Assembly (NCBI GenBank): GCA_030144725.1
Contig: JASKMD010000005.1
Coordinates: 2,225,476 to 2,289,475 of the forward strand
Direction of reading: 5' to 3'
DNA: 64,000 nucleotides
Source of the DNA: Haematococcus lacustris
Lineage: Eukaryota > Chlorophyta > Chlorophyceae > Chlamydomonadales > Haematococcaceae
Of the stretch, positions 9,527 to 52,100 are shown in pieces. Numbering within the stretch: the first letter of the stretch is position 1; every line of letters begins with the position of its first letter. Made by a program: the position numbers and the translations under genes. The notes beneath the pieces were generated by a model that ran no database searches, was not told the DNA's origin, and was given only the letters and a program-made list of their open reading frames with translations.

Positions 9527-9550
9527 ACCTCGAGCTGTTAACATACTATG

Positions 9551-9722
9551 GGGGCCTGCTGAGGGGGGTGGCTGTACCACAACAGGCAGGTGGATGAGCA
9601 GGGGAAGGTTGGGATGGGTCGTATGGCAGGGGGCCAGAGAGGACGTTGGCCAAAAAGAGATATAAAAGAGAATAAAGCGAGGTGAGGAGGAAGAGGTTGA
9701 TAAGTAAGAGGCACAAGGGAGT
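9551..9722. repeat. Interspersed repeat R1, copy A
   Basis: About 170 bp starting GGGGCCTGCTGAGGGGGGTG and ending ACAAGGGAGTG, located directly after PEX10. It matches 12859-13030 with a few substitutions and small indels. It is followed within about 20 bp by the solo Fanzor-end block at 9743. I do not recognise its family. Confidence 0.75.
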
Positions 9723-9742
9723 GTTAGCCTTTAAGCAATTAA

Positions 9743-9915
9743 GCTGTTAGTTTTGATGGGGTGCCCAATGGTCTGTCCCGGGAAAGTGCCATCTACGTGG
9801 GGGCTGCAGTCTTTAAGGGTGCGACCGGGGATGCTACATCATGTTTGTAGTAGCTGAGTGAGATTACCCACAAGCCGACATGTTGTTCCTTGTTGAATGA
9901 GTTTTGTTGGTCTGT
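9743..9915 (+). mobile_element. Solo copy of the block found 3' of the Fanzor gene (candidate right end)
   Basis: These 173 nt align without gaps to 22373-22545 downstream of the Fanzor stop codon, with 13 differences by my count (about 92% identity). No Fanzor coding sequence adjoins this copy, so it looks like a solo end or a deletion derivative. The opposite strand is open, but nearly all differences between the two copies would change the amino acid, which argues against conserved coding. It lies between PEX10 and the convergent methyltransferase gene. Confidence 0.6.
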
Positions 9916-9991
9916 TAACATACTATGCATGAACATCGACATCCACAACCACGCAGTTTCGTCCTCAAGCCCGGTAGAATGAATGAATAGA

Positions 9992-12900
9992 TTAATCGCT
10001 ATCATCAGAGCTGTCATCACGCGCCGCCGCCTTGTGTGCTCGGTGTTGCGCTTTGCGCTTAGCTATGCCGTGGGCTTTCGCCGCAAGCACCTTGCGTTTG
10101 TCGCTGAATACCCATGTTCGACAGGCCTTACCCTCCAGCTCCACGTTCTTCTCTTTGGTAGCGTCCCAGCCGATCGTGCGACGATGTTCATACCCTGCAC
10201 AGGCGCCGCACGCGCCCGCGCTAGCAGCCGACCAATAAAAGCAGCATGGTAGTGAGCCCGACTTAAGCGACACATGCTTCAATTCTGGAGCTGGAGCGGA
10301 TGCGGAACGGATGGTGCATGGCTCTTACGAGCAACACTCTGCACAAGCTGCAGCCAAGTAGCATCTGCATGGCTCTAAATGACAAAAGGCAGGCACCTGG
10401 ATAGGAGGTGTGATTGAAAGGTAGGCAGCCGGATGCAAAGTAGCCAGCAGCCTTGGCCAGCTCCACAATCTTCCACTCATCGTAGGGCAGGCCTGTGGGC
10501 AAGAGCATGCAGCTCGCATAGCAGCCAGTGCCTGCACTGGTTGCACTGCAGCAAACTGATTAATGAAGGAACAAAGGGGGCGAGGTGGTTGGGTGGGACA
10601 AGGCGGCGGATGGACAAGACATGGTGGGGCATGCGCATGGGTGCGAGACGGGCATGGGAAAGAGGGCTGGTGAGGATGAGGATGATGGCTTCCACCCCTT
10701 GAGCCATTAGCTGTTCAGCTGCTTGACAGCAGCAGGGTGGCAGGGTGGCTGCGTGACAGTAGCAGGGTGGCAGGGTGGCAGGGTAGCTAGCTTGACAGCA
10801 GCAGGCTTCGCCGAAGAGTAGGGCCGACTCCCGGGTGAGCTTTGTGGCTGTGCAGGACGAGGGGTGGCAAGGCAGGTGGTGGGTAAGAGCCATGCCTGGC
10901 TGCCGGTGATGAGAGCTGTTGCAGGCTGAAAGGCCTGAGGCAAGGCAAGGCGAGGTGACCCATGTGCGCATTCTACCACACATGGAGCACCACACCTTGC
11001 CGGGGGGGTTGCTGCCTACAGGTACCTGCTCATGATGTAGTGTGACCAGCTCCTCACCTGACTTTAGTGTGACCATCACCTGCCCTGGTGGCGGTGTGAT
11101 GGGTCCTTTGGCTGTGAACAGGGGTCCAGCTGCTGGGGTCGTCAGCAGGGGCCGGGCAGCTGCGAAGAAGCTGGCCAGCAGGCGCTGGTTGGACAGGATG
11201 TTGTGGTCCTGGTCCTTGATGCCAGCGCCTGAGGCCACAAGGGGAATGGCTGAGAGGTCAAGTGAAGGGGAGTTCTGGACCCATCGCAAGCCCAGGCTAT
11301 TGCAGGTTGGGGTCACAGAGTGAATCCAGAGGTCATGCTGAGTAGAAATTGAGACCCACTGCCGGGCCAGGCTCCTGAGGTCAGAGCCCGAGGCCAGTCT
11401 AAGCCTACGCTAAGCTCACTGAACAAGGCTGTGGGGGGATCACTAAACCCCTTCTTATGTCCTAGAGCCACCAATGGCTGTACGCGGGGCGGGGCTAGGG
11501 CTAGGGCACAGTATTTGGCTGGTAGCAAGCATTGGGTAGCATTTGGCTGGTAGCAAGCATTTTACCCCATTGTCTTTTGACGCTGCACAGGCAGCACAGG
11601 CAGCACCAGCAAGCACAGGCAAGCGCCTGGCTGAAGCACTCGCTCCCACCTGCCCTCCCTCGTGAGACAAGAGTCACCACGGCACCTGCCTGCATGCGGG
11701 AAGTTGAACACGACCTTCGTGAAACCAGCGGGGCGGGCCTTCAGCTCCTTGCAGGACATTAACCGCGTGGCGTCCACCCCGTGCAACACATGGCCGCCGA
11801 GGTCTTTAAAGCTGGCCAGGTGGCGCGCGGCGTCCGGGTATTTGTCCGTGACAGCCTGCGCAACGCAAGGATGTGAGCGGGGCGCAGCGCGATGTGCAGG
11901 TTTGTCGGGCAGCTAGCCAAGATTATGACGGCGCGAGGTGGTTTGAGCTTGGTGCCTCAGCCGCGGCCTCAACTTGCTGCCCGGCCAACCCTTGCGACCG
12001 TCACCTGCGCGGTGTCCAGAGACGTGGCTACGACCAGCTCCGCGTCGCCCAGCACCTCCGCCAGCGCTGCTGCGAAGGAAAAGTTGCCTGCGACGGTGGG
12101 AGGAAAGGGGCAGAGAGGTAGCCGGCAGGGCATTGTCAGAGGTGCAAGCCAGGGTGGAAGGGAGATGCAGCGCGGGGCAGGAGCCTGCAGTCAGTTACAA
12201 TCCGACGTGTTGACCTCAATCTGACCCAGATGTAACGACCCAGATGGTATAGGCCCTGCCCCAGGCACCCCTGGCCTAAATCCCTACACTGCACCCCACT
12301 GCACCTTCCTTGCCTCTCCCTGCCCTCCCGCCCCTCCTGCCCCCCTGCCGCCCACTACCACGCTGCCCTCACCTTCCCCCACCAGCAGGATGGTGTCCTC
12401 AGTGCTGAAAGGCACCTTAGCCATCCCCCGCTGAACCTTTGCTTCCCCCTTCACCCATGCAGCCCCTGTGAGCCCAGCAGCCCCTGGCCCCTGCTCTGCT
12501 GCCCTGCTGCTACCCTCAGCTGCTGGCAGCACAGGGATGTGGCAGCTGTCATTGCTGCCGCCACCCCGTCCACCGTCTCCAAGGGCATGTGGCTGCAGCT
12601 GCCCCTGAGGGGAGGTGGGTGCATGCAGGCTCTGCCCCTGCCCCTGAGTGTCCTCAGGCTGCTGTGCCGCCTGGGTCGCAGTGGGTGATGGCGGGTGGGC
12701 TGCTGCGGCCTGGGTCAGGGTCACATTACGCTGCTTAGGGGTGTGGCTTTTGCCTCTGGCTTTCTGGACGCCGCTGGGCCGGGCAGGGCCGGGTTGCTTG
12801 CGTGGCTGACCGTCTGTAGGCCGGGTATGTTTGTTGGCCCTGCAGGCGTGCAAGCAGAGGGGGCCTGCTGAGGGGGGTGGCTGTAGCACAACAGGCAGGA

Positions 12901-13211
12901 GGTGGATGAGCAGGGGGGCGGTGGGATGGGTTGTATGGCAGGGGGCCAGAGAGGACGTTGGCCAAAAAGAGAGAGGAGATAAAGCGAGGTGAGGAGGAAG
13001 AAGTTGCTAAGTAAGAGGCAAAGGGGAGTGAACTGAGAGGTTGTTGTTGCTGGTTGTTCACAAGGTAAGTGTGAAGTGGAGCACTGCATCAGGTGTAAAG
13101 GTGCCGCCATATCTGTCTCTAGCCTCCCTTGCCTTACTTGGCCCTGCTCCCTTTGTTGTACACCTGTTTGCAGCTTTGCTTCAACCGCAGCTTACGCCCC
13201 TTCTTGGCCAT
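9992..13211 (-). CDS. BMT5-like 25S rRNA (uridine-N3) methyltransferase, DUF2431 family
   Basis: Seven exons on the minus strand (13138-13211, 12373-12839, 12005-12087, 11690-11855, 11058-11228, 10397-10492, 9992-10194) total 1260 nt, giving 419 residues and TAA. The start MAKKGRKLRLKQSCKQ is basic, as expected for a nucleolar protein. Family motifs in order are ILLVGEGNFSFAAAL (SAM-binding loop), VVATSLDT, HGVDATRL, VVFNFPHAG, DHNILSNQRLLASFF, GQVMVTLKSGLPYDEWKI and YPGYEHRRTIGWDA. Yeast BMT5 makes m3U in 25S rRNA; the same role is inferred here. Exon 2 carries a long Gln/Ala/Pro-rich insert before the SAM loop. The intron after 11690 needs a GC donor to keep frame. Intron 1 contains repeat R1 copy B. 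The C-terminus is Asp/Ser-rich. Confidence 0.87.
12859..13030. repeat. Interspersed repeat R1, copy B, in intron 1 of the methyltransferase
   Basis: Second copy of the sequence at 9551-9722. It lies fully within the first intron of the minus-strand gene, so it does not touch the coding sequence. Confidence 0.75.
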
Positions 13212-14897
13212 GACGGCCGCTAGTACGCAGAGAGCATACCTGGAGTTTCCCTTTCCTTTGTGCCTTTAAGCTGGCATCGCTGTGGAGTCCGCAGGCTTGC
13301 GCGCTGAGTGGGCCGCCCCACACACCTCGGCTTGCATTCTCCATGCAAGGGAGTGTACATCGAAGGAAAATCGCATTCTACTGCCGACGGGGTGCTGTCG
13401 TTTATGTCACTGACCAAATTCACTTGTTTATTACCAGACAAGGAGAATGAGCAGTGCCACCTGTGTTAGCAGCGTTGCCCTAGCCACACCTTGTCTAAAT
13501 GCATCAAGCTGCTTAACAGCCTGGTTTTGACAGCTATGTGCACGAGAGCTCTGTGTGCGGCCAAAAGGCGACTAGCAGCTAGCAGCCTCCCATCAACACT
13601 CACACGGCTTGCACACAGCTTTGTCCACCCCGCCTCGCCTTGCCCCAGACTTGGTCTGTAGAGATGCACACGGAGGTTTTGTGGGCCTGCTTAATAGTCT
13701 GTAATGGACCTCACTTCCGCCCCACTCCGGTTGCCGGCGCTCCGGTTAGATGCCAACCTCAGGCGTTCCCAACATGGGGTTGGCAATCTTCATGCAACTG
13801 CAGCCCATCTACTCCATCATTTGATGTAACGTTTGCTGCGTCTGCTGCAATGCGATAATGCGCGTTTTGTGTAAGACTGGAATTGCCATCAGAGTCGTTC
13901 GATGCGGGCAGCCACATGTGACCCCGGATGTGTCCCAGTTACAGACCGTGGTTAGCTACACTGGTAAGCTACGTCCTTGGCTATCCGTTAGCGATGCACG
14001 ACATGTCGGTGGCGCACACCACCGAAGTCCGGCAAACATGGCTGCGAGAGCTTCCTGATGGTGCAGGCCGCTTGGCGAGGATGTGACAAAACACGAATCC
14101 GAGTGTGGCAGCGCTATATCGCTGTAATGGTAGGCGGCACAGTAGGGCCTAGTAACCCCCTCCAGCTATTATCCGCTTTATGTTTTGCACCACTGAACAA
14201 ACAACCTGGCCTCACTCGGATTTGTTATACCATACTCAATGACGCGTCCGTGGCACTATGCAACTCAATCATTGGGTCTGTATGTGACAAGATTGACCCC
14301 TTACAAGGTACACATGGTCACCCCCGCCACTGGCTGCACCCCTGATAACTATCCGACTGATCTTTAAGAGTTTTTCAGCGATTCTTGCGCAGGGCGGTGC
14401 AGCTCACCAGCGCGAGGCTAGCGGGCTGCTCGGGCTGATGTGCACCTGTGCCGGGGCGGGCGGGGGTGTTGAGAATTCTGGTCGCGTTGTGCCGGAATTG
14501 GCCTGCTTAGTGGGGCTGTGATCGGCGAATAGCTATCTCGCTCAGCGGCTCAGCTTTTCAAAATTTTGAATTTCTTGTCGGGCGCAGGACCCCCCCGACA
14601 TGTGTTCTAGTGCTAGTGCTAGTGCTGATAATTTGCTCGATAGTGCTAGTATAGCTTGTGCGCTGTCCCTGCGTGCGACTCGTGTCACGTAAGACCATGT
14701 GGAATTTGCATGAAAAGGGCACTTTTCCGGCCGTTCTCACTGTCCAACCAGGGCGGCAGGATGTGAACTGCCAGTTCTGTGCGGCTCCTTGTGTGGGCTT
14801 CTATCATGTAATCAGGACATAAACGCGTTGTGTTCATGTTTGGGCCGTTTGTGATGCTCCTAAGTAGACCCCCATGCACCTTACATAACCAGCCAAA
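13212..14897. other. Intergenic, no gene recognised; scattered element-like fragments
   Basis: Short open frames lack family resemblance. A segment around 13673 (GGTTTTGTGGGCCTGCTTAA) resembles the terminus of the Fanzor-end block, and 13759-13795 resembles 63074-63105 (both contain CCAACATGGGGTTGG). The stretch is probably made of old mobile-element pieces, including the 3' flank of the transposase gene that ends at 14898. Confidence 0.4.
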
Positions 14898-17698
14898 TCA
14901 GCCATATAAACGGTTCACCTCATATTCAAACTCCAGCTGCTCACTCCTTAGGTCCCTCACCACCAAACGACGCAGTTTCCGACGTTCCTTTGGCCTATCC
15001 AAACCCATGTGCTGGCAATATCGTGCACAGTGTGTGTTGGTCAGTTTGCCAAAGCACACCTCATCGTGCAACAAATCGGGATAGAACCACATCAACAATG
15101 CATAACACTCTTCGTCATCATACACCTCCTTCACAGTGTCTTGAAACATGGGCATGGGCTCAAGTGGGGTAGTGGTGTCAGGCTTCATGCATGGCAGGCA
15201 TGGCACATTCATGCACGTGCTGCATGCACAAGCAGCCATGGCCCATTGAGGCTGCTCCCTGTCAGGTGTGAACACCATGCGGTGCATTGCCCTGCACCCC
15301 TCCACCTTATCATGCATGCGCTCCACATCAGCCTCTGGCATACTGCATACACCTGCTTGCCTAGCGTCGTCCAGCACCAGGTAGCGCCGACGCATGATGT
15401 GTCCACGTTGCCGGTGGCTGGCACTGGTGTCTTGTGCATGGCATGGTACAGCAAAATGCTTGTTAGCCCAATCTGTCAGCACAGCAGCCCCACACACTTT
15501 CCCCACCAGTTCAGGATGGACTAACATCTGCTCCCTCCACTCCCTCTTAGCCACCCCACCCTCAGAGTCATGCGTGCTCTTGAAATGCGATGTGGCACCA
15601 TATGACCATTGCACTGGCACCCCAAACCTATTGGCTAGATGCCAATGCAACCTAATGGCCTTGGCCCCCTTGAACTGTGATGCACAACCATCTGACCACA
15701 AACACAGCTGCCTCATGTCCATCTTGCCCACCCACCCCTCTCCATCGTCCCTCCCCTTACTCACTCCATCGGTGTTGCTGGCCTCACCCTGGATGCCATC
15801 CGGGTGCCTCCTGCCTTGCAGCAAACACTCAATCACTTGCACAAGGGCTGTGGTGGAAGCCTCAGCAGACTGGTCACACCTGTCAGCACTCACAAACACT
15901 GACTCCTCCCTGTAGTTGCCCGCCATGTCCTGGTAGTGTGCACATGCCACGAACACTGACATGGTCCTCTGCTTCCAATATGCTCCCTGACATGCTATGT
16001 CTTGGTGGATGGTGAGCTTCTCTGACCAGTCACACGACACGACAACTAGCCCCGGTGTGTTGCGCACAGCGGCACAGTGCGCCCTAAAGGTGGCACGCTG
16101 ATGCCTGGCAAGGTATTGATGCCCTTTGCCCCTCACCATGCCCCTCACCATGCCCCTCACCATGCCCCTCACCATGCCCCTCACCATGCCCCTCACCATG
16201 CAGCCACCCAGCCAACCAGCCTGCAGCAGGCCACCCTACCCATGCAGCCCTACCAGCCCATGCAGCCAGCCTACCCAGCGGTCATGCGCACGTAGTAGCG
16301 CCGCACGTCCTTGTACATGGGTGACGGACTGCTGTGTTCCTCGAAGAAGGTGCGCACGTACTCCAGCTGCTCCTGGCTGAGACAGCGGCGGCCGCGCTGG
16401 AGGGGCGCTGCTGCCCAGTCTGCTGCTGCGCCAGCTGCCAGGTTGGACAAGTGGCTCCTCCTGGCACGCTTGACTGCATGGGGCGTGATGCCCAGCTGCC
16501 TGGCCGTCCTCTTGATGCCATGCTGCTCAATGCCCCTGCCCATAGTCATGATCAAGGCAGTGTTCAACGGCTGCTGGTTTGTTGAGCGCTGCCCACCCGG
16601 GGCGGGCTTGATGCCGGCAAGCACAGGCCTGAGTGACTCCACCATGATGCCCCCCAGCACCTGGTCAGGGGTGGGGGGGACCACGCCAGTAGGCAGGCTG
16701 ACCACAGACCGCATGCGGCGGTGCTGCTGCAGCCTGTCCAGCAGCCCTGCACCCGCCTCCACTGGGTACTTCTGAAACTCATTAAGCAGTGGTTGCAGCT
16801 TCCGCTGCCAAGCCTGGGGGGAGTGGCTGAGGGACTGTGGCTGCTGCTGCTGCTGACGGTGCGAGCGCAAGTCCCACACCGGGCGTGGGGAGAGCGGCTG
16901 TTCGGTGCAAGGCGGGGAAGAGGTTGCAGGGAGGAGAATGCCCATGCCCTTTCCCCTGTTGCCCCTGCCCTTTGCCCCCCCCCCTGCTGCCCCGGCTGCC
17001 TCTGACTCTGCAGCAGCTCTAAGCACAGCAGCCACAGCTGCCGCAGCAATTGATGCTGCCGCTCCTTGAGGCTCATCCAACCTGCACAGCAGCAGCAGCA
17101 GCAACAGCAGGGCAGCTGGGGTGGATGTCTAGCTATGGCTGGTGACAAGCAAGATGGTAGTAGTAGTAGTTGGGGCAACACTCACTTTGCAGGTTGGGAA
17201 GGCAGAATGCCCATGCCCATGCAGCTGGTGTTGCTGCTCAGCCAACTGCTGCTCCCTCAGGTGCATGTCTGCCTGCTGCTGCTGCAGCTGCTGTTGCTGT
17301 TCAGCCACCTGCTGCTCCTTACGTTGAAGTTCATCCTGCTGCAGGTCCTGCAGCTGTTGCTGTAGATGTTGCAAGCGGCGGGTGTCAGTAGCTTGCTGCT
17401 CCCTCTGCTGCAGTTCAGGCTGCAGCTGGTGCAACTGAGCCTCATAAGCACGAGCATCAGCCTGTGCCTGGGCCTCAGCCTCATAAGCACCAGCATCAGC
17501 CTCATAAGCACCAGCCTCATCAGCACCAGCCTCATCAGCCTCATAAGCACCAGCATCAGCCTGTGCCTGGGTCTCAGCCTCAGCAGCACCAGCCTGGGCC
17601 TTGGCTTCAGCCTCAGCAGCCCTGCGCTGTGCCACAACCTCCCTCGCTTTTTGCGCACCGGCACATCTAGCCATCACCCCCCTTTTCTTGGTAACCAT
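14898..17698 (-). CDS. DDE-type transposase-like gene with coiled coil and HTH-like region
   Basis: Three minus-strand open blocks appear to form one element gene. The 5' block starts MVTKKRGVMARCAGAQKARE (17698) and runs into an Ala/Glu/Gln-rich coiled coil, ending at a GTGAGT donor near 17180. The middle block (about 17095-16271) contains GIKRTARQLGITPHAVKRAR, which reads like a helix-turn-helix. The 3' block (16199-14898) carries VVSCDWSEKLTIHQD, WSDGCASQFKG and HFKSTHDSEGG, spaced as the three acidic positions of an RNase-H-fold DDE nuclease, followed by Cys-rich sequence and a stop. The acceptor for the middle block does not keep frame with the obvious donor, so the splicing is unresolved or the gene is damaged. 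I cannot name the superfamily. Confidence 0.5.
16126..16200. repeat. 12-bp minisatellite (ATGCCCCTCACC)n
   Basis: About six copies lie between the middle and 3' blocks of the transposase-like gene. On the minus strand they read as repeated Met-Val-Arg-Gly, so apparent start codons here are repeat artefacts. The repeat may be intronic or an in-frame linker. Confidence 0.85.
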
Positions 17699-19400
17699 GG
17701 CGTTTACAGGCCTGCACAACGGCAAACACTTCTCACAGCTCAGTGTCTGCATGTTTTTCACTAATTCTTGCCGTTCGTGGTTGCTCAGAAGCCACAAGCA
17801 CCAGTAATCAGGAACTCTTGTGCAACCTAAAAATGGCTGCAACATGTGGACTGAACCTGTTTTCAGCAACAATCCACAATCGCGGTCACGCTCCCAACCC
17901 GCAATGCCATCGACCTGCAGAGGCGCCGTTTGATGACAAAAGGTGACACTTTGGAGCGGGGGGCAAGGAAGCAGGCCGGGAAGCAGCAGGTGAGCTTGGG
18001 AGAGGGTCTCGATTCGTGCTAGGACGTTGCAGCACTGATGCGTGCTAACCTGAAAAGTTGGCATGTCCAGTCAGGATGCGCCATTCACGCCGCTCTGGGT
18101 CCAGGCTGCCTAATGCCGTCGCTAAATGTGTCTGCGACGCTCCAGAACACGTCGCGTGTTGAGGCCAGCCACCCGGCAAAACGCTGGGGCTGTCTGCACT
18201 CTATTCGGGCCATCAGCAACTCATCGCACAAATCGGCGGCCTCATCCGTGCAGAAATGAGTTAGAAAGTTATCTCTTGAGCCATGGGGGTGCAGCCAATG
18301 GCGGGGGTGACCACATGCTGATGGCTACAGGTTCACGAGGGGACGACCGAGCTTGTCTTACAACTTCACCACGTGGCCCCACCAACACAACTTAACCCAC
18401 CATCTCCCAACCTCGTCTACTCCGCCCAGCTCCCAGTAGCCCCTCCTCCCAGCAGCCTCTCCAAGTGCCGGCAATTCTTCGTCTCTGAGCAGTGCGTCCT
18501 CCTTAACCCACACCGGCCAGGCAAGACATCCACAGCCCTCATGCTACACCTTGAGTTGTTGCCATCTCCCCCTCAGCAGCAGCTGACACCTGCAGGCACC
18601 ACCCCTGAGCTGGCTGTGCCTGCTGGAGCACCCCCTCAGCAGCAGCGGCAAGCACGTCACGTAAGCGTGAGGCACCTGCAGCTAACAAGTCGAGGGCAGC
18701 AAAGCAAGGTGAGACAACACCACGTACTGCACCTAGCACCTTGTTTCAGCGTAGTAGAGCAGCCGGTAATGCACTTGCGCCAGCAGCAGCACCAAAAGCT
18801 AATAGTGGTATCCAGTCGTCACGACTGCCGTCGTCGCGTCCACATGCCAAAAGCAAAACATTTTCCGACTGCTGCTGCGCGTTGCAGGTGCCCCTCACAA
18901 CAGTGTGGCGAAGCGTGCTAGAGCGGCGCGCCTCGCATGTGGCGAAATCGCATGAATTCAAATGTGTATCTTTGGGCAGGCACTGAGCACCGCTGAGAGT
19001 GAGATAGTTTTTGCTGCGTCTGCCATCTCGTAGCTATGTCTCTCCTCTGTTCAAAGCACTGTTTACATATATTTTTGACTGAGTGGCTGCGGAGATACGG
19101 GCTTCGTATCACAGGGGGGTGGTTTTCAGGTAGTTGGGAACGCCTGAGCCAACCTGATGCACACCCCAACACAGCCACTCCGCTTGGATAATGTAACTAA
19201 ATCCCTGAGATGCCCCCGAGGGCGAAACGCAAGCGCCCCGTCTCTCCCACGCGGAGTGCAGCCGGTAAGCCGAGATGCTCAACGACAGGCTAGACTCCCC
19301 CGAAGTTAACTGACGACGCGACGCAGTGTGCGCCACGCGACATTGCGACTCCGTGCATCAAATCCTGCCGTGCGTGTGCTGTGCTTTCCCGTGTCTGCAG
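17699..19400. other. No confident gene; possible 5' exon of the Fanzor gene
   Basis: On the plus strand at about 18640-18888 there is an open frame with basic, Lys/Arg/Ala/Ser-rich sequence (STSRKREAPAANKSRAAKQG), which would suit an N-terminal nuclear-localisation exon of the downstream Fanzor. I could not find a donor that joins it in phase to the acceptor at 19400, so the link is only a suggestion. The rest shows nothing recognisable. Confidence 0.3.
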
Positions 19401-22327
19401 GTGCCAGTGGCAGTGGGCAGCAAGTCCAGGGGCAGGGGCAGGCTGTCAAGGTAGTAATTGCAGAGAGGCGCCAGGTCATCAAGGCAGCTCTGCGTGGTCT
19501 TGTGGAGGCAGCCCAGCCTGACCTCAGCCCAGCTGAGGTAGACGCAGTTGTGGCAGAGGTCAACAAGCGTATGACCATGGGCAGCAAGCAGTGTGTCCTG
19601 GCAGCAGTCATGAGCCTGACAGTGTTGCTCCTGTCCTTCCTAGGTCAGCCCACTCCAGGGTTCCCAGCAGCAGCAGGTCCAGCCCCAGGTCCCCCTCCCC
19701 CACCTGACCCAGCCCACCCTCCCTATGCCCACCCCCGCATTCCCACACGCAGCTCCCCCCGCACAGCAGCCGCCCCAGCCCAGCTGCCTCCCCCAGTGCA
19801 GCTGGGTATCTGGGACCCACAGCTGCTGGCACAGATCAGGGACGCCATGGAGCTGCTCACTAAAGCCAGCGTGATTGAGCACATGATGCGTGGCCCCCAC
19901 CACCACGGCATCAGGCTGCTGCCCGGTGAGGTGGCTGCCTTTGAGCAGCCCAGCAGTGCCTGGCCGGTGGCCATGCTCCAGCAGCTGGACGAGGAGCATC
20001 TGACAGGGGACGGCAACTCCCTCAATGCCAACGCCACCACCATCATCACCAGCATCCAGGAGTTCTACAGGCACCCAGGGCGTTTCATCCGTTGGTGGTG
20101 CAAGGCGGTTGGGGTAGTGGAGGAGGGGTTCAGTAGGACCATGAAGAAGCAGTTCCCCCAGCTAGTGCTAGGCCGCCTAGACTACAGCCTGCCTGATAGG
20201 CAGCACAAGTGGCGCTTGCCGGCCAACAGTGTGCTGAGGCAGCCTAGGTGGAAGGAAGAGGTGGCAAAGCATCGTAGGCTGCTGGGGCTGCCGGCCACGT
20301 GGCGAGAGGGACAGGACTCCATAGGGAAAGGGGGGCCAGGCAGGCTGCCCTTAGAGAAGAGGGTGCGCTACGCACTGTTCGTCAACCGCAGCCTAGAGGG
20401 CTGGCAGGCAGCCCATGACACCTGCCCACGCCCCTTCACCATGCTCCCCATGGTGGGGGTGCGGGCTCGCCACTTCGTCATTGATGACAGGGTGCTGCAT
20501 GGGGTGTTGACTGACCTGGGCATCACCACCCTCACAAGGTCCCAGCTTGAGGCAGACAGCCTGCCCCATTGGCAGAAGTTTATCCAGTACAGTCAGCTGC
20601 AAAACAGCGGTTGGGAGTTTGCGCGCAGGGTAGAGACAGACGGGGTCAGCATCTCAGTTCACTTTGTCCGCAGCCAGGCAGTCACCGAGCCCGTGGAGCT
20701 GCCCTTCATAGGGCGTAAGCTCACAGCCACCAGCGACTACGACCCTACCACCCACATTGGTGTTGGGGTGGACCCAGGTGTCACCCAGGCCATCAAGGCC
20801 GGGCATGCACAGCGGGACCAAGTCACAGGTCAGGTGCTTAGGCAGTGGGAGTGGGAGCTGAGCAAGGGGCAGCTCAAGCATGACAGCGGGCTTACAAAAG
20901 CCAAGCAGGACACAGCCCGCTGGTCAGCTGCCATCCAGCCACAGCTGCTGCAGCTGGCTAGTGCTACCCCAGCTGGCACGACCCTGGGCGGCCTCCATGC
21001 GCACATCCTGGCCCTCAAGGCCACCTGGGACGCGCTATGGGAGGAGTACCTCAAGCCACGCTGGCGCAGGCAGCGGTTGGCGTTGCACCATGCCCAGGAG
21101 CGCGTTATTGATGCGTTCTGCAAGAAGGTGTGACCCTGACCCTGACCCTGACCCTGACCCTGACCTGTCCTGACCTGACCTGACCTGACCTTACCCGACC
21201 TGACCTGACATGACCTGCAGGTGGTGAATGGGATGAAGTGGGTGTCACGCCACCACTACTGTCCTGACCTGACCTGACCTGACCTGACCTGACCTTACCT
21301 GACATGACATGACCTGCAGGTGGTGAATGGGATGAAGTGGGTGTCACGCCACCACTACTGTCCTGACCTGACCTGACCTGACCTGACCTTACCTTACCTT
21401 ACCTTACCTTACCTGACCTGACATGACCTGCAGGTGGTGAATGGGATGAAGTGGGTGTCACGCCACCACTACTGTCCTGACCTGACCTGACCTGACCTGA
21501 CCTTACCTGACCTGACATGACATGACCTGCAGGTGGTGAATGGGATGAAGTGGGTGTCACGCCACTACTACCACCAGGACAGGGGAGTGGCTGTGTTCCT
21601 GGGAGCGGGCAACTTCAGCCAGGGTGGGTGGAAGGCGGGGGCGGTGCGGGCGGGGTTTCGCAAGGTGGTGGAGCAGCCCAGCAGGCCCAGCGCAGATCCC
21701 AGGCCTGACAGGCTGGTGATCGTGGATGAGTTCCGCACCAGCCGTGTCAGCTCCTCAGTGCATGCCCGCCAGCCTTGTGAGCTGCACCTGCCACCTAACC
21801 AGCCCAGGCCAGCAGACTGGGTACCCCCAGCAGGCCAGGTCAACCCGCGGCTGGTGCGCCCAGCCTGGAGCCTGCGGCATGCGAAGTATGTGCGGGGCCT
21901 GTCGTGGTGCCATCAGGTGCCGCCCAACCCTCCGCCCCCTGCCCCAGCCCAGGCCCCACCCCCCCCACCCCCCGCCCAGGACCCCCCCCCACCCCCAGCC
22001 CAGGCCCCACCTCCCCCTCCCCCAGCCCAGGCCCAGCCCCTCCCTGCAGCACCTTGTCCAGCCCCACCACCCCAGGCCCCCCCAGGGGGCAGGTGGCTGG
22101 ACCGGGACACCAACGGGTGCCTGAACTTGCAGCGCATCGGGGAGAGCAGGCAGCGCCCCATAGAGCTGTGCAGCTGGGATGACCTTGAGGCTCTGCCCCC
22201 CATAGGCAAGGAGTACCAGCAGCGCTACAAACGGGTCAATGACCGGCTGCCCAAAGGCAGGCAGTGGTTGCACCGGGCTGCTGAGTACCGGCGGGGCATT
22301 GATGGTCGGGCCCGCAACAATGCATAA
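19401..22327 (+). CDS. Fanzor (eukaryotic TnpB-like RNA-guided endonuclease), near-intact
   Basis: Two exons, 19401-21127 and 21533-22327, join in phase 0 to about 840 codons ending in TAA. The true start is not located, since exon 19401 needs one base from an upstream exon. Fanzor features in order are a Pro/Gln-rich N-terminal part, MLPMVGVRARHFVIDDRVLH, FARRVETDGVSISVHF, RuvC-I GVGVDPG (Asp codon 20771-20773), VAVFLGAGNFSQGGWK, RuvC-II VIVDEFRTS (Glu codon 21728-21730), and RuvC-III WLDRDTNGCLNLQ (22094-22132). All three acidic positions are present and no internal stop interrupts the frame. The usual CxxC after RuvC-II is replaced by VSSSV, with single Cys residues at QPCE and SWC. A Pro-rich insert separates RuvC-II and III. 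Fanzors cut DNA guided by a structured RNA; activity of this copy is inferred, not shown. Confidence 0.82.
21128..21532 (+). repeat. Fanzor intron made of TGACC repeats with four tandem splice-acceptor copies
   Basis: The intron is built of TGACC/TTACC pentamers. The segment CCTGCAG followed by GTGGTGAATGGGATGAAGTG occurs four times, with exon-like starts at 21221, 21320, 21434 and 21533 (spacing 99, 114 and 99). Only the fourth copy continues into the long open frame; the first three run into TGA within the pentamer repeats. Confidence 0.9.
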
Positions 22328-22372
22328 GGCCCTAGTAGTTTCACACAGGCTGTCAGCCTTACAAAGCATAAT

Positions 22373-22545
22373 GCTGTTAGTTTTGATGAGGAGCCCAGTG
22401 GTCTGTCCCGGGAAAGTGCCATCTACGTGGGGTTTGCAGTCATCAAGGGTGCGACCGAGGATGCTACAACATGTTTGTAGTAGCTGAGTAAGATTACCCA
22501 CAGGCCGACATGTTGTTCCTTGTTGAATGAGTTTTGTGGGCCTGT
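22373..22545 (+). mobile_element. Conserved block downstream of Fanzor: candidate guide-RNA/right-end region
   Basis: It begins 46 nt after the Fanzor stop and matches the solo copy at 9743-9915 over 173 nt without indels. In TnpB and Fanzor elements the omega RNA is encoded at the 3' end of the gene and runs to the element's right end, so position and conservation fit that role. The terminal piece GAATGAGTTTTGT recurs again at 22711. The RNA itself is inferred. Confidence 0.5.
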
Positions 22546-22563
22546 AGAGATGCACACTTTGTT

Positions 22564-22636: not shown

Positions 22637-22984
22637 TCAGCCAGCATTGTTCACCTGGTTGTGAGCCGATGTGGTCTCATCTGAGGTGTCATCTGAGGTC
22701 TCCCCTGGTCGAATGAGTTTTGTTGGCCTGCTTAACAGCGGTGTGCTAGATTGAATGTACTGGCGGTGTGCTAGATTGAATGTAAGAACACGAGGGAGCG
22801 CTACACAACTACCTGCTTGCCAGATTTTATCCAGCAGTGCAAAGCGACCGCTCCCGAATTCATGCCCATAGTACTCCTTAATTCCATTCCACAACCACAA
22901 CAAGTTCACAACACAAACTGACGAGTGGGGGGAATGATGATATTGGTTGTAGCGCAAGCATTGAGGGCACCTAGTCATTGACAT
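22637..22984 (-). CDS. Small unassigned ORF, possibly element-derived
   Basis: An ATG-initiated minus-strand frame begins MSMTRCPQCLRYNQ and contains LLWLWNGIKEYYGHEFGSG, which has more ordinary composition than the surrounding shadow frames. The start of its 3' part overlaps a short repeat (GTGTGCTAGATTGAATGTA, twice near 22740-22783) and the Fanzor-end-like fragment at 22711. I recognise no family; a transposase remnant is one possibility. Confidence 0.2.
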   Translation of the reverse strand: MSMTRCPQCLRYNQYHHSPHSSVCVVNLLWLWNGIKEYYGHEFGSGRFALLDKIWQAGSCVALPRVLTFNLAHRQYIQSSTPLLSRPTKLIRPGETSDDTSDETTSAHNQVNNAG

Positions 22985-24460: not shown

Positions 24461-26052
24461 ATGGCTGCAGCAGCGACTCCTACGTCCTCACGACGTTTCC
24501 CAGTGCCGGTAGTGCAAGCGTGTGACCAACGAACTCAGAGGCGGTACGTCAGTATTCCCACCACGCCCCCAACCCTCAGCAGCATGGTTGCCAAGCTGCT
24601 CGTAGAGGCCTTGGCCGAATGGCTGGAAGGGCCCGGCCCAGATGCCGACAGCCTGGATGGCAGTGTGGAGACCCTCGGCGCTGAGCAGCTGACTGATGAT
24701 GAAGTGCACAGCCGCATGCTGACACTGCAGGATGAGCTTGAGTTCCAGGCAAGGCCAAGTTGGGAACTGCTTAACATGCACATACAACGGCGCATGGAGC
24801 GGGTTGCGACAGGGAGCGGCTTTACATGCACAGCACATTATTCCCCTACTATAGTGGGCAGGGGCTGTGTTATCTGTAATCCGAACTGCTTGCATGCAGC
24901 AAGCATCCGGCACCAATACCAGATGTCCTACCCCAACCCACTTGCGAAGGCCGGGCAATCTATGTTGGCATGGAACACATGCTCTGATGTAAGCAACAGC
25001 TTCAGCATTGCCTAGTGCACACATGCTATTGTGCTACAGGCTGCTGGGCTTGGGCCTTGGGGGCTCGCTCTCGCAGCTTCCAGAAGCCCAATGCTGGGTA
25101 CTCCTTGCCCTGGGCTGGAAGTCTTCCTCGGTGTGGCCACCTGCACAGCTCCAGTGGGCGCCACTTGCTCTCCCCTGACCGCTGGAGGTTGAGGGCTGCG
25201 TTGCAGTCCCTGTCCACCCATTTGCCAAGCTCCCCAGGGGTGGCCTGGGCCAGCCAAGGGCACCACATGAGCCCCCGCACTGGCGCCTCAAACCACTTGC
25301 TCCAGGCTGACTGCAACAAGCGGTTCTGCACCTGACCCGGCTTGGGCTTCCCGTCCTCAGGCCTGGTGGGCTTGCTGCTATCCAGCTCCTCCTCACAGGG
25401 CTGGGGGCTGTCCAGGATTGAGCTGGGGACCTTGGGTTTGGGCTTTTTGGGCTCATCCGCGCCCTTGCGCTTCTTGCCCTTCATTTCACTCTGTAGTAGA
25501 TAGAGAGAGTAGACGGTATCCACTCTCACTACTCTCACTCTCGCTACTTGGGTTTGCCCGAGCTTTTCACACTCACTGGACTGCTCCCTACTACACACTG
25601 GACTGTTCGCTTTGCATGCACAGCAGCGTCACCTGCACTCATCATGCATGTGCAGCATGTCCCTAACCTAACCTACAGGGTGCCAGCGGCATGCTTGCTC
25701 AGTACTGCAGCACAGCATGGCTCCTCCTTCTGCAGCTGACAGGACCACATGCAGCAGCATGCAGCTCAGCCCAACGGCTTGATAGCGCCTTTGTGCAAAC
25801 CTCATCCTCACTCTCATCTGGAAACAGCCCCACTGATAAGCTTGTACAGGTACCCCACCCTGTCTCCCTCCATGCCCTGCGCCTGCTGCACCCGCACCCA
25901 CTGCCCGCTGCTCTGCAGACGCTGCCAGGCATTGCCCTGTTGCAGCAGCAGCTGCGGCTCAGTGTGCAGCAGGCCCTGGAACGCTGCGGCGCTGTGCCGC
26001 CTCTCACCAGCACCAGCCCAGACCCACACCTCCCCGCGCTGACACCCCACCT

Positions 26053-37738: not shown

Positions 37739-40700
37739 ATGTTCGGCCTGGACGGCATTGACGAACAGTTACCATACGACAATGCTGCGGACGAAGATGT
37801 TCTCAAGCGCGCCTCTGCTCGCATTAGCGAAATCTTACCAAAGTATCGGTCAACGCTTGGTCAACCCCTGGCAGCTCTAAGCAGCCAGGGCCCCGTCATG
37901 ACCACCCACATGGGCCAGCTCCCACACTCCAGCATTGGCGTCTTGCGGCATGTGCAGGCGCCTGCGCTTCAGTGAAGCCTGGGGCCTTCGCCGTGACCTG
38001 GCCATTGCGGCAGCTGAGGCCCAGGGGGTTGGGCAGCGGAAATGTGCTACTGCTGACAGCGACAGCCAGCACCTAAGGGTACGTGTGTCGACAGTCCATG
38101 CCTACATGGGCGTCAATGCCAGCCTGATCCCTGCTGGATGGTGCATGTTGAATGCGACCCTGCAGGTTTTTGTGCGCTTGCGGCCTCAACATGTCAAGGG
38201 CGTTGTTGGAACAGCGGACAGCGTAGCAATCCAAGCATTGTCTGTCACTGAGCTGGTCCTGCACCCTCCTCAAAACGACAAGCGGTGTGTGGCCCCAGCA
38301 CAGCCACAGCACAGCCACAGCCCCAGCACAACACCATTCTTTGCCTCTGCCCTCTCTGGCAGCAGTGTCAAGCTCTCAGGCAACTCTCACGTAGCCTCTG
38401 CCCTCTCTGGTCAGCTCTCTGGCAACATAGCCAGGGCCACACCCTATAAGCAGTATCGCTGGTCATGTTCCTTGTGCAGAGTTCTGAAGCCGTTGCCCTC
38501 AGAGACCTTCGCGTTCACTCGTGTGCTCCCTGCCATCACCTCCCAGCAGGACTGCTTCACTCAGACAACCTTACCCCTGGTGGGCGCCGCTTGTCCGCTG
38601 TAGGAGCAGCACCTCCCTCCTGATGCTGGCTGTGTCCCTGACTGGCTGTGGGGCCTAGAGGGGCTGGCCTTTGGGCACCTGGGGGCACCACATCAGGCCC
38701 AAGCTGGCTGGTCAGCAACTGCCTTGCTAGGGGCTTCCAGCCTGCAGGCTTGGTGGGCTTGCGTTTGTCCAGCTGCTCCTCACAGGGCTGCTGGCCATAC
38801 ACTGCTGAGCTGACCTGGCTGGTGCGAGGTCATCCACTAGCACCACCCTGCCCCGCTGCTGGTCTGTGCCCCTGGGCCTGCACACCAGTTTGCAGCAGGC
38901 TTACAGCACCACGTCAGCACCCAAGCCCCCCCAGGTGCAAATGCCAGCTGCGCCAAAGAAAGCGACCAGCTGCGCGACGCAGTCATAGCGCTTCATGGAC
39001 ACCTCAGCCATCTCCTCCTCCAGCAGCTGCAGTCATACACACAAGGCACACAGGGTGGCTGACATGGTGGCACCAGGTTAGGCATGGCACAGTCAACTTC
39101 TTTGTCACTTTATGCCATCCCACCACCTCCCAGTTCCTTCCGCTTCTTCCAAGGTACCGCTAGGTTCTGGGCTTTTGAACGTTTGTAACTTCTCCAAGCA
39201 ACTTGAGGGTTTTACAATGTCTGGGGTCTGTGGGGTTCATAAGGCACAATGACCTCTGTCCAAGCATCCTGTAGTGTCACTGTCAGAGCAGCAGCCACAG
39301 CACAGCACACTACCACATGTCATAGTGCTGGCAAACATCGTGTTACTCAGCACCATTAGCATGAGTTCAAGAAGCTCAGCAGGGTGGTCCCCATCACGCC
39401 TGCCCGCAGCGGGCCTGTCCCCTCCCCTGTGGTTCCCAGCAGGTGTATGCCTGGTCCACACAGGTCTGCACTGCACATGCCTACGTTGACAAACCGCACG
39501 CAGGTATCAGACCTGACCAGCTTCAGGGCCACCAACAGCGTCATCATGGCCTTTGGCAGCAGCGGGGCAGGCAAGACGCACACTATGCTGGTGGGTGAGG
39601 GCAGGCGTGACTTGGCAGAGCAGGTGACTTCGCGGAGCAGCGCACAAGCCCATTGCCCTCAGCCTGCTGCGTGGCAAGCAGCAAGCCCCTCTCATGCATG
39701 GTGTAGGCAGCTGAGCATGTGCTGTGCATGACAGGCCACCCTGCGTTGCTTGTTGCCGCCGGCCCAGGGTACCGAGGCTGAGCACGGCATCTTGCCCAGG
39801 TCCATCTGCCAGGTCTTCAAGGTGTGGGGCCCAGGTCACCAACATCGCCATCATTGCACCAACTGGCATGCGGCCTGCCTGCATGTCAGCAGCTGCATGT
39901 CAGCAGCTCCCTCACGAGCCTGGCGAGCAACAACCACCAACGCAAAGGCAGATTGATAGTAAACCCTCACTAAGGGTGGATGGAGTTGTGCTGGCATGCG
40001 GTCGACATGTACTGGCATGCGACAAGATCAGCCCCTGCCAGATCTGCAGCAGCTATGTGTGGGTTCACTGGTGAGGGTTGCAGCCAGCACAGTGAGGGCT
40101 GCGGCCTCACCCCTGGGTCAAGGCCAGTCAAGGGTCAAGGCCATGGCCGCATACTGAGATCAGGCACCGCCTGCCTGCTTTGCTGCCCGCCCTTGCCTAT
40201 GCCATCAACAGCTCAAGGCTGCAGGGCGCCACATCACATCAGCTAGGCAACATTGCAACCATCATCAACACTCAGATGATGATGATGATAATGATGGTCT
40301 TTCTTTGAGACCGAGCATCCAACACCAGCACCATGCGTTGTGCCACACTGCTGGGCTTAACAACATCGTAACTACTCATCGGAACTACCGCGACAACACT
40401 ATACTACTAAGATAGTAATGATGATGATGGGGGGACTTTGTTACACGACCAAGATGATGTTGATAAACGTTAAGCAGTCAACCAAGCAGTCAACATAGCC
40501 TACACTGGACATGCATATGCAGCAGCAAGGACCTGAAAGCGTTGCGCCCTGTCATGCTGCCGCCGCGCCTGTGCTGTGTGGTGTGCAGGACTTGCAGGGC
40601 CTGCCGCACAAGGTGCTGGTGTCGTACTATGAGGTGAGGGCAGCAGCACCCAGGGCCCACCCTCAGCTGCCCCACCCTCATGAGGCAACAGCCTGACACG

Positions 40701-49121: not shown

Positions 49122-52100
49122 ATGCTATTAAGGGACGGTCCGCAGCACTTGGTTGAAGCGGCTGTTGTAGCGGGATGCGCACCCAATGCATTCTCCGCCG
49201 GGACCTTTTCTGCGGATCAGCGATACACCCCGGCACTGCTGGATGTAGCTCTGGGACCTGCAGCGCAAGGGATGCGACTGCCGCCACACCTGGCCCTGGT
49301 GGGTTTCGGCGCAATGAGAGGGGCCCGGCATATGGTCTACAGCTTACTACAGTCCAGTACAGTACAGTCCAGCGTCAAGCTGTGTTCACTCAGTCCTCTG
49401 GCTGCGCTGTGCATGGCTGCCTTCAGTGCTGCCTGCCGGCTGGAGTGGAGATTGTGGAGCCTGAGCAGCAGCCAGACACGCTGCAGCCCCAACTCTACTC
49501 ACTGGTGCTCACGGGTGGGGCACAGCACCTCCCTCAGCAGATTGACAGCACCTGGCAACATGGGCAAACACCAAGGGCACAGTGATAATAACCCTAACTA
49601 GGGGTGGTGTTTTTACCTGTATAGAGTTATGCTCCCATGCACATGGCATGCACTCCCTCTACCTGCACTACTGCCTTACCCCTGGGACAGGGCTATAGCC
49701 TAGAGTTGGCATGACTGACATGCACTGACTGTGACCTGATGACAGCTCATAAGGGGGCACATTACTGTGCCACAGCCTGCTGCGGCCACTTCTACTGCTG
49801 CTGCTGCTGCTGCTTTGGCTGACCGGTTTGGCAGCTGCTTGTGGCCCAGGCTAGGGTGCCCTCTGCCCCTGCCCCTGCCGACCTGCCGCAGCCCCAGCCC
49901 TGTCTACTGTACCTGCACACCGTACTTGATCACCAGCAGCTGGCGGCTGGCGGCTGGTCATCATGGCGGGGTGCCCAGCACTGCCCAGGATCACCACCTC
50001 ATGCTGGCCCCTGCTAGGGTGCTCTTTGCCCTTGGCTGGCAGAGCTGGCAAACCCAGCCACCAGCACAGCTCCAGCGGGCGCCACTTGCTCTCCCCCATG
50101 CGCTGCACATTCAGCACTACATCACAATCCCTGTTGACCCATCTGCACGGCTGCGGCGCTGATGGGCTGGGCTGAGCAGCCTTGCCCGGCTGGGCTGAGT
50201 AGGCTTGGCTGCCTGCCCAGCCTTGGTGCGCTTGTTGGGCTTGGCTGGTGGAGCAGCGCTCAGCCAAGGCTCTGAGGCAGTGTGGCTGACTGGCTGTTGG
50301 GGGGCCTGGCAGGGTTCAAGGTGGAGGGGCACCTGGGGGCGGCATATCAGGCCCCAGCCTGGCTGCTGGCTGTGTGGCCGCCTTGCGCTGGAGGGGCACT
50401 GCAGCCGCCTGCCTTGCTGGGGGCTGCCAGCCTGCAGGCCTGGTGGGCTTGCGTATGTTTGCCCAGCTGCTCCTCACAGGGCTGCTGGCCATGCCCTGCT
50501 GAGCTGAGGTTGCTGGCAGTGGAGGGCCTCAGGCACCTCAGGGCTCACAGCTCAGCCTCAGCACCCCTCAGCACCCTCCCAGGGAACCCCAACCCCAGCT
50601 GCGCCGGAGACAGGGGAGGGCGTCAGTAGGAGCGGTTGCACTGTTTTACCAGAGCAGCTGGGCAGGGGCAGGGGCGGGGCAGGGCAGGGGAGGGGCAGGG
50701 CAGGGGCAGGGGCAGGGGCAGGGGCAGGGGCAGGCTCCCCAGCATCAGGGTCACAGTGTGATGTGCTGAGAGCTGAGTTGAGGTCCTTGGTCAGCCTGTC
50801 GCCTCCCTTGACAGGGGAGGAGGCGTTGGTGTCCTCGACCCATGACTCAAGGCATGCTAGACAGGCAGCCGCCCAGGCTTTGACCAGGCTTTGACCAGGC
50901 TTTGACCAGTCGGCTCTTTGGTCAACAGCTGAGTTGAGGGCTGGTGCAGCCGTCCTCTATCAGCCTGCTGCGTCCCTTACAGAGAGGCAAGGGCTGGCCC
51001 CTGGCCCCTGGCCCGCTCCCCGGCCATCCCCTTGGCCGGCCCTTGCTGACCATTCACTGCTGAGCTGACCTGGCTGGTGCGGAACTCATCCACTAGCACC
51101 ACCCTGCTCCACCGCTGGTCTGTGCCCCTGGTCCTGCACACCAGCTTGCAGCAGGCTCGCAGCACCAAGTCAGCACCAAGCAGCCCACCCTCCCCGGGTG
51201 CTGACACCAGCTGAGCCAGGGCTCTGACCAGCCCGAGGGACCCCGCGGCAGGTTGCAGTCCTGTGCCGTGCAGCACCTCCAGCCGTCCTCCTCCAGCTGC
51301 TGCAGTCATGCACACAAGGCACACAGGGTGGCTGACATGGAGGCACCAGGTCAGGCAGGCCCCCCCCACCCCCACCCCACCCACCACCAGCAGCATACAG
51401 CAGGCCATGCTGCTCAGGGATGGCAGCTCACTCCCCCACCTGCTGCCTGCCCTGCCGCTGCTCCTGCCGCTGCTGCTTCCTGCAGATGAGAGCGGTGGGC
51501 GCCTGTTCGCCTCCTGCCTGCTATTCTATGAGGAGCTGCCCCCCGCCCTGGCCCTACCCTACACCGCCGCCTGGGGCCTGCATGCCAGCAAGGCGCTGTG
51601 CCTGCTGTCCCGCACCCCCTGCCTGCACAGCCTGGAGCTGCTGCTGCACGGCCTGCACCGCACAGTGTTCGTTACGGGCAGCAAGTGGCCGGTGGCAGAC
51701 CTGGTGCACGCCATCCTGGCCCTGCCTTACCCCGCACAACCGCAGCCCCTGCCGCCATGGCCCCCCCCCCTCCCCCTCCCCTTCCCCCCCCCCCCTGGCC
51801 TCAGCCCTGCCCCCAAGCCTGTACTATCCACCACCACCAGGAGGGGGGAGGGGGTGGGGTCACACCAGTGGGGGCCGTGGAAGCTGGCCAGAAGCTGCAG
51901 CTGGGAGTGCACAGCTTGGAGGGCAGCCTGGTGGGGGGAGGGGAGGCACAGCGCGTCTGCTTCATGCTGGCAGGCAGGCCCTTCCACCTGCCGCTGCTGG
52001 CGCCCGGGCTGGCTGCCCCGGTCCAGGAGCTGCCCCTGAGGCCCCTGGCGGAGAGGTTGAGCCCGGACCGCCTGGTCAGCGCCTGGCTGGCAGGTGAGGG

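Follow-up and report, generated by a model that had tools for sequence, protein, structure and literature searches.

A probable Fanzor-derived RuvC protein without a zinc ribbon, carried by a high-copy mobile element of the green alga Haematococcus lacustris

Fanzors are the eukaryotic, TnpB-like RNA-guided nucleases, and their catalytic motifs can be recognized in a gene within a 64,000-nucleotide stretch of Haematococcus lacustris DNA (assembly GCA_030144725.1, contig JASKMD010000005.1, positions 2,225,476 to 2,289,475 of the forward strand; this whole stretch is called the window, and all positions refer to it). The question raised by this locus is whether a protein that has these motifs and lacks the zinc ribbon belongs among the Fanzors and, if so, what kind of element carries it. 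We consider it likely that the window contains a full-length, duplication-flanked copy of a high-copy mobile element, whose one recognized gene encodes a Fanzor-derived RuvC protein without a zinc ribbon that may cut DNA under RNA guidance.

The gene lies on the plus strand, as do the ends and target duplications of the element, and consists of three exons (19210-19264, 19401-21127 and 21533-22327) that join into a single open frame of 858 codons. Exon 1 starts with an ATG, in MPPRAKRKRPVSPTRSAA(G), and is followed by a GT donor at 19265, while exon 3 includes the stop codon. The 858-aa product is identical to an NCBI hypothetical protein of H. lacustris, QJQ45_000689, which was found in a protein search; thus, the NCBI annotators picked the same splices. 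A preliminary description of this DNA had already joined 21127 to 21533 in a frame without internal stops, and that join is borne out. Its spliced frame of about 840 codons from 19401 is indeed open, but intron 1 has its acceptor at 19401, so that the 5′ exon had been missed and the real length is 858 aa. A start exon of the same kind opens seven of 223 related proteins (the best 120 of each of two protein searches, fetched), the window protein among them. These first exons encode a basic stretch, for example KRKRP, which could be a nuclear signal.

The three RuvC acidic residues follow one another in the expected order. D476 (20771-20773, in exon 2) stands in DPGVTQA, and E660 (21728-21730) and D786 (22106-22108), both in exon 3, stand in VDEFRTSR and DRDTN, respectively; the motifs GVGVDPG, VDEFRTS and DRDTNGCLNLQ of the preliminary description are where it had placed them. 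According to Yoon et al. (2023, PMC10711439; this and the other papers are cited from parts of their text), the molecular fingerprints of Fanzors are a DPG motif and a glutamate that precedes the zinc finger by six residues. Both are found here. The DPG is at RuvC-I, where the aspartate is kept in 143 of 150 motif occurrences among the 223 proteins. The alternative glutamate is E660, which is followed by FRTSRV and then by residues 667-670, at the zinc-finger position; this glutamate is present in all 197 readable RuvC-II motifs of the same proteins, and its register is preserved even though the cysteines are gone. The motif that Bao and Jurka (2013, PMC3627910) gave for Fanzor/TnpB, D-X(125,275)-[TS][TS]XX ... 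RD plus a C4 zinc finger, is likewise found except for the finger, with 186 residues between D476 and T663-S664-R-V and the RD at 785-786. Of the three residues, D786 carries the least weight, because active GtFz1 has an asparagine at the third catalytic position (PMC11423790).

Structure comparison points in the same direction. With a predicted model of the window protein, which is itself poor, SpuFz chains rank first to fourth of 350,542 PDB chains in Foldseek, and the top eight matches are all Fanzor and Cas12 proteins. The VIA-align matches are confined to residues ~454-663 and are uninformative on other parts of the protein. The model of P0119, a paralogue of a second group described below, has a mean pLDDT (predicted local distance difference test) of 39.9.

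Several results do not bear this assignment out. Translated exons 2 and 3 gave no significant match in Pfam and NCBIfam, the whole 858-aa protein had no significant match in Pfam, PF07282 (the TNB domain) included, and among PDB sequences there was no significant match either for exon 2 or for a profile of 24 family members. Furthermore, the C4 zinc finger that Bao and Jurka place between RuvC-II and RuvC-III is absent, and by that stricter definition the protein is not a member. The profile search proposed in the preliminary description thus leaves the window copy unplaced when used alone, although some paralogues do reach the TNB model: PF07282 is weakly matched by four of 24 paralogues (best E 0.026), and its cut-off is passed by two of five chosen paralogues, P0215 and P0035. 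Over the whole genome, the same model gave one sub-threshold match (E 0.53) from six candidates, and 9 of 14 control genomes also gave a signal. The protein could instead be another transposon protein with an RNase H fold that resembles a Fanzor by chance. This is very improbable, as the DPG, the register of the alternative glutamate, the [TS][TS]xx, the RD and their spacings would all have to coincide, the top eight Foldseek matches would have to mislead, and two paralogues pass the PF07282 cut-off. Hence, the reading of 19401-22327 as a Fanzor stands on the fingerprint, the order and spacing of the three acidic residues and the Foldseek rank, which together support the kinship, and falls short in the zinc finger and in the sequence profiles.

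How complete is the loss of the ribbon? In the window protein, the register of the first zinc-ribbon CxxC is occupied by SSSV (residues 667-670, 21749-21760). None of the 197 readable RuvC-II motifs has a CxxC in this register, and 182 of them have SSAV (122) or SSSV (60) instead. Nor is there any CxxC between the glutamate and RuvC-III in the 104 proteins that have D, E and D in order. At the DNA level, SSSV is present in all 29 readable exon-3 loci of the 30 considered, and a comparison of 24 copies shows codon differences at three of the four sites but the same amino acids throughout. Judging by these sequences, the ribbon was probably lost before the family expanded and its replacement residues were then conserved, and a few lower-ranked copies may possess the cysteines. 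The zinc finger is strictly conserved in the founding definition of Fanzors (PMC3627910), and many, but not all, Fanzors carry it in a later survey (Yoon et al., PMC10711439); it is a CCCC finger in both SpuFz1 and ISDra2 TnpB (PMC10432273). A literature search that covered parts of papers, and few subscription papers, brought up no report of a Fanzor family without zinc fingers or of a Haematococcus Fanzor.

The family is large and selection has acted on it. The element is present hundreds of times in the genome, fragments included; exon 3 has at least 200 genome matches, with some copies giving two of them. At E 1e-3, the two protein searches gave overlapping lists of 352 and 658 proteins, and all matches are from H. 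lacustris among those listed (the best 120 of 352 and the best 120 of 658). In IMG/VR, 40 stretches matched a pattern and none of them encodes a relative. Alleles may be counted as copies, since the assembly used here has 308 Mb and one published assembly of the species has 151 Mb. There are two paralogue groups, that of the window copy (VDEF, SSSV) and a second one (VDEH, SSAV) that is 37-47% identical to P0001. Fragments of the second group (VDEHRT...SSAV) also lie on the minus strand of the window, at 25056-25424, 38646-39084, 49995-50144 and 51010-51357. Among 24 exon-3 copies with intact frames (the window copy and 23 others), the median synonymous divergence (dS) is 0.18, the median nonsynonymous divergence (dN) is 0.062 and the median dN/dS is 0.33 (range 0.06-0.87; 271 pairs with dS >0.03, which are non-independent and come from copies preselected for intact frames). 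The median dN/dS is unchanged when two near-identical duplicates are dropped (22 copies, 229 pairs). Because no CxxC appears in the readable motifs and the median dN/dS is 0.33, the expansion of the family took place without the ribbon and with purifying selection at work.

The loss of the ribbon, which belongs to the TNB domain, would also fit a protein that is derived from a Fanzor and no longer cuts, that is, an RNA-guided binder acting as a silencer or regulator in the manner of Cas12m. Nuclease-dead relatives of TnpB exist as RNA-guided silencers or regulators. For instance, Cas12m2, in the partial text available on it, has a RuvC triad of a non-canonical kind and provides protection through silencing, although its HCCC zinc finger is kept. 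We regard a non-cutting role as unlikely in the present family, given that the three acidic positions, which mere binding would not need, are kept almost invariably.

The borders of the element indicate what carries the gene. The right end (22522-22541, GAATRAGTTTTGTTGG in the family) is common to the copies, with CTG a base or so further in most of them. In the window, it is directly followed by a 16-nt duplication (22542-22557) whose exact match, CTGTAGAGATGCACAC, lies at 13656-13671. After this left duplication come 28 nt (13672-13699) that hold GTTTTGTGGGCCTG, a 14-mer that recurs around the right end, and then the conserved left end (TGTAATGGACC..., 13700-13757), recognized by alignment to the left ends of other copies. 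Excluding the insert described below, the left end is 90-95% identical to those of L008, L013, L016 and L011 over 109-113 columns and 77-81% identical to those of L015, L021 and L025. Since the 16-nt duplications are accompanied by a matching left end, the window element is complete, with ~3.45 kb, and subsequently received an insertion of another transposon upstream of the gene. A 5′ truncation of the window copy at 19148 was entertained and given up when the transposon inserted in it and the duplication of 16 nt came to light. The GTTTTGTGGGCCTG next to the left duplication is presumably a junction between a right end and a left end, and its presence there hints, in this single case, at head-to-tail copying. 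No exact inverted match of at least 6 nt was found between the two terminal stretches compared.

Duplications are also found at part of the other copies. Of 34 right ends, 10 have at least 11 nt of their flank exactly repeated upstream, compared with 11 of 272 control positions, and 7 have at least 13 nt so repeated, compared with 4 of 272 controls. The window copy and its near-identical duplicates (L001, L003 and L005) had been dropped from this set, and L002 and L012 were kept despite a shared flank; the test reached 5 kb, and the partner of the window duplication lay farther away and was found separately. One of the ten repeats, that of L019, is probably due to chance. The duplications have 11-16 bp, and in nine copies and in the window copy they begin with CTG or have it no more than two bases from their start. 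In these ten duplications, the base before the CTG is T in six, A in three and G in one, and TTTT precedes none of them.

Two further structures in the window belong beside these ends. At 9535-9927 there is a 5′-truncated copy in which 196 bp of the 3′ end of the element (9722-9915) are joined to 175 bp of a different repeat, which is present at 12859-13030 as well, and this copy is flanked as a whole by a 16-nt duplication, CTGTTAACATACTATG. In addition, a second right end, GAATGAGTTTTGTTGGCCTG, is found at 22704-22730, 186 bp past the first, and is followed by CTTAACAG, which is similar to CTTAATAG at 13690.

The transposon that hit the element is a DNA transposon of 5.4 kb (13758-19148), which sits in the 5′ noncoding part and is no part of the Fanzor element. 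Its terminal inverted repeats, CTCAGGCGTTCCCAAC, are perfect over 16 nt (13758-13773 and 19133-19148), and its duplication is CCAAC or GCCAACC, so that its exact borders hang on whether 5 or 7 nt are counted. A Pfam search, at the thresholds applied, gave no match for its minus-strand frames at 14898-16235 (445 aa), 16271-17128 and 17129-18070.

Whether this copy is well expressed is a separate matter. Intron 2 (21128-21532) contains pentamer repeats and, in all, four copies of the exon-3 acceptor together with the first exon-3 codons. Three of them are decoys, with exon starts at 21221, 21320 and 21434, each of which leads to a 612-aa product without RuvC-II and RuvC-III; the full protein arises from the fourth and last acceptor alone, the same one as in the NCBI protein. 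Elsewhere, a single acceptor is found in 27 of the 30 loci and none by the exact pattern in two, with more than one in the window copy only. The term near-intact in the preliminary description is thus fair for the frame and does not extend to intron 2. The window copy may be intact in its frame and yet a poor expresser, and it could even be a relic, open in frame with mis-spliced transcripts. The unique set of acceptors and the nested transposon between the left end and the gene are what such a relic might display; nevertheless, the fourth acceptor does yield the complete protein, as in QJQ45_000689, and the dN/dS of the window copy against the 23 other intact copies is 0.19-0.73. On balance, we think a relic possible but not the better bet.

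If the layout known from TnpB and Fanzors applies, the guide RNA should come from the 3′ noncoding region (22328-22541), which is a candidate scaffold by position only. This 214-nt region has a median distance of 0.126 between copies (276 pairs), below the dS of 0.18, and is thus more conserved than synonymous sites. A structured RNA finds no support in two results: 1 of 64 pairs is compensatory, so that covariation does not back such a structure, and the folding energy is ordinary (z-score 0.18). No Rfam family exceeds its gathering score for the region. By analogy with known Fanzors, from which the guide RNA, its source, target recognition and cutting are all carried over, the protein would bind RNA made from this region, the flank following the right end, starting with the first bases of the right duplication, would act as a guide pairing with target DNA, and the RuvC site would cut the paired target, which would favor the spread or retention of the element. 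In the fullest form of this proposal, a Fanzor lineage lost its ribbon but preserved a functional RuvC site and grew to hundreds of copies as an active RNA-guided nuclease, with the TNB domain held together without zinc, the CTG flank serving as guide and each insertion programming the cutting of its own empty site. So much taken together must be called doubtful.

How the element spreads is suggested by the pattern of the family, in which the 3′ end is fixed, 5′ truncations are frequent, internal deletions occur, duplications vary and some copies have extra 5′ sequence. Apart from the Fanzor gene, the element is too short to contain a gene for a transposase. It may therefore spread by a copy-type, 3′-anchored process with machinery supplied from elsewhere, as in the Chlamydomonas Fanzor1 elements CRe-1 to -3. 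One candidate source is target-primed reverse transcription on the machinery of a long interspersed nuclear element (LINE), rather than a one-ended route like that of Helitron2. The genome contains a young LINE-like family, seen at loci L031-L038, L016, L019 and L032, which ends in CAT repeats on its 3′ side and of which many copies have open frames as long as ~1180 aa; a 97-aa query has at least 150 matches in it, which are 97-100% identical among the matches listed. The Fanzor copies L019 and L032 have their right flanks at one point of the LINE (CTGCAGCACCTAG), and the LINE piece in L016 ends there. Moreover, in five of the 223 proteins (P0024, P0136, P0002, P0005 and P0108) the Fanzor is joined with parts of a single LINE-like reverse-transcriptase gene, through either gene-model fusion or nested insertion; P0024 and P0136 presumably include an endonuclease part. 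These fusions, the chimeric 5′ segments (the LINE pieces in L016 among them) and the combination of CTG-bearing duplications of variable length, 5′ truncation and a fixed 3′ end would fit such a route. By contrast, the introns are retained, and the LINE's own 3′ end is unlike that of the element. Internal deletions offer no spliced copies either, as none of 13 has GT-AG ends (0.013 in random intervals), in what is a weak test since 7 of the 13 junctions have more than 20 mismatches. Mobilization of unspliced RNA is still compatible with these results, and we hold the LINE route as a tentative minority view.

The family matters for several reasons. It keeps D, E and D under purifying selection without a ribbon, which raises the question of whether RNA-guided cutting requires the ribbon and offers natural variants for testing it. 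Its many copies with readable ends and duplications make the insertion-site motif, and hence a candidate target-adjacent motif (TAM) and guide, predictable. It also supplies many insertions for studying how Fanzor elements without transposase are copied in green algae.

Among known systems, SpuFz1 of Spizellomyces punctatus and other Fanzor1 proteins share the D-E-D order and give the best fold match in PDB, and they are likewise transposon-borne and present in many copies in one genome (PMC10432273). Nevertheless, the NUC domain of SpuFz1 contains a CCCC zinc finger, where the Haematococcus family has SSxV for CxxC, and SpuFz1 is bounded by inverted repeats of 30 nt (PMC10432273), where the terminal stretches compared here have none of 6 nt or more; the distance from E to D is 65 residues in SpuFz1 (E541 to D606) and 126 in the window protein. 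TnpB and Cas12f (PF07282) have the same three-part RuvC site and the same position of the TNB domain, but TnpB typically has DPhiG and the canonical glutamate (PMC10711439), as opposed to DPG and the alternative one, and ISDra2 TnpB retains the CCCC finger that the Haematococcus family lacks (PMC10432273). The closest parallels in lifestyle, compared by published description, are CRe-1, -2 and -3 of Chlamydomonas reinhardtii, non-autonomous elements with a multi-exon Fanzor gene, a mostly intact 3′ end, frequent 5′ truncations and internal deletions and, in some, extra 5′ sequence (PMC3627910). Their duplications, of ~7-19 bp, are variable, as are those of 11-16 bp found at part of the Haematococcus right ends. 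However, CRe duplications follow TTTT or T-rich tetranucleotides, whereas the Haematococcus ones hold CTG at or near their start and none follows TTTT. The ends of CRe elements match those of Helitrons, and Bao and Jurka assign CRe-1 to -3 to one-ended Helitron2 transposition (PMC3627910). Finally, Auxenochlorella is another green alga with an abundant Fanzor element, which is its commonest repeat (PMC12633428), and this abundance is shared by the Haematococcus element.
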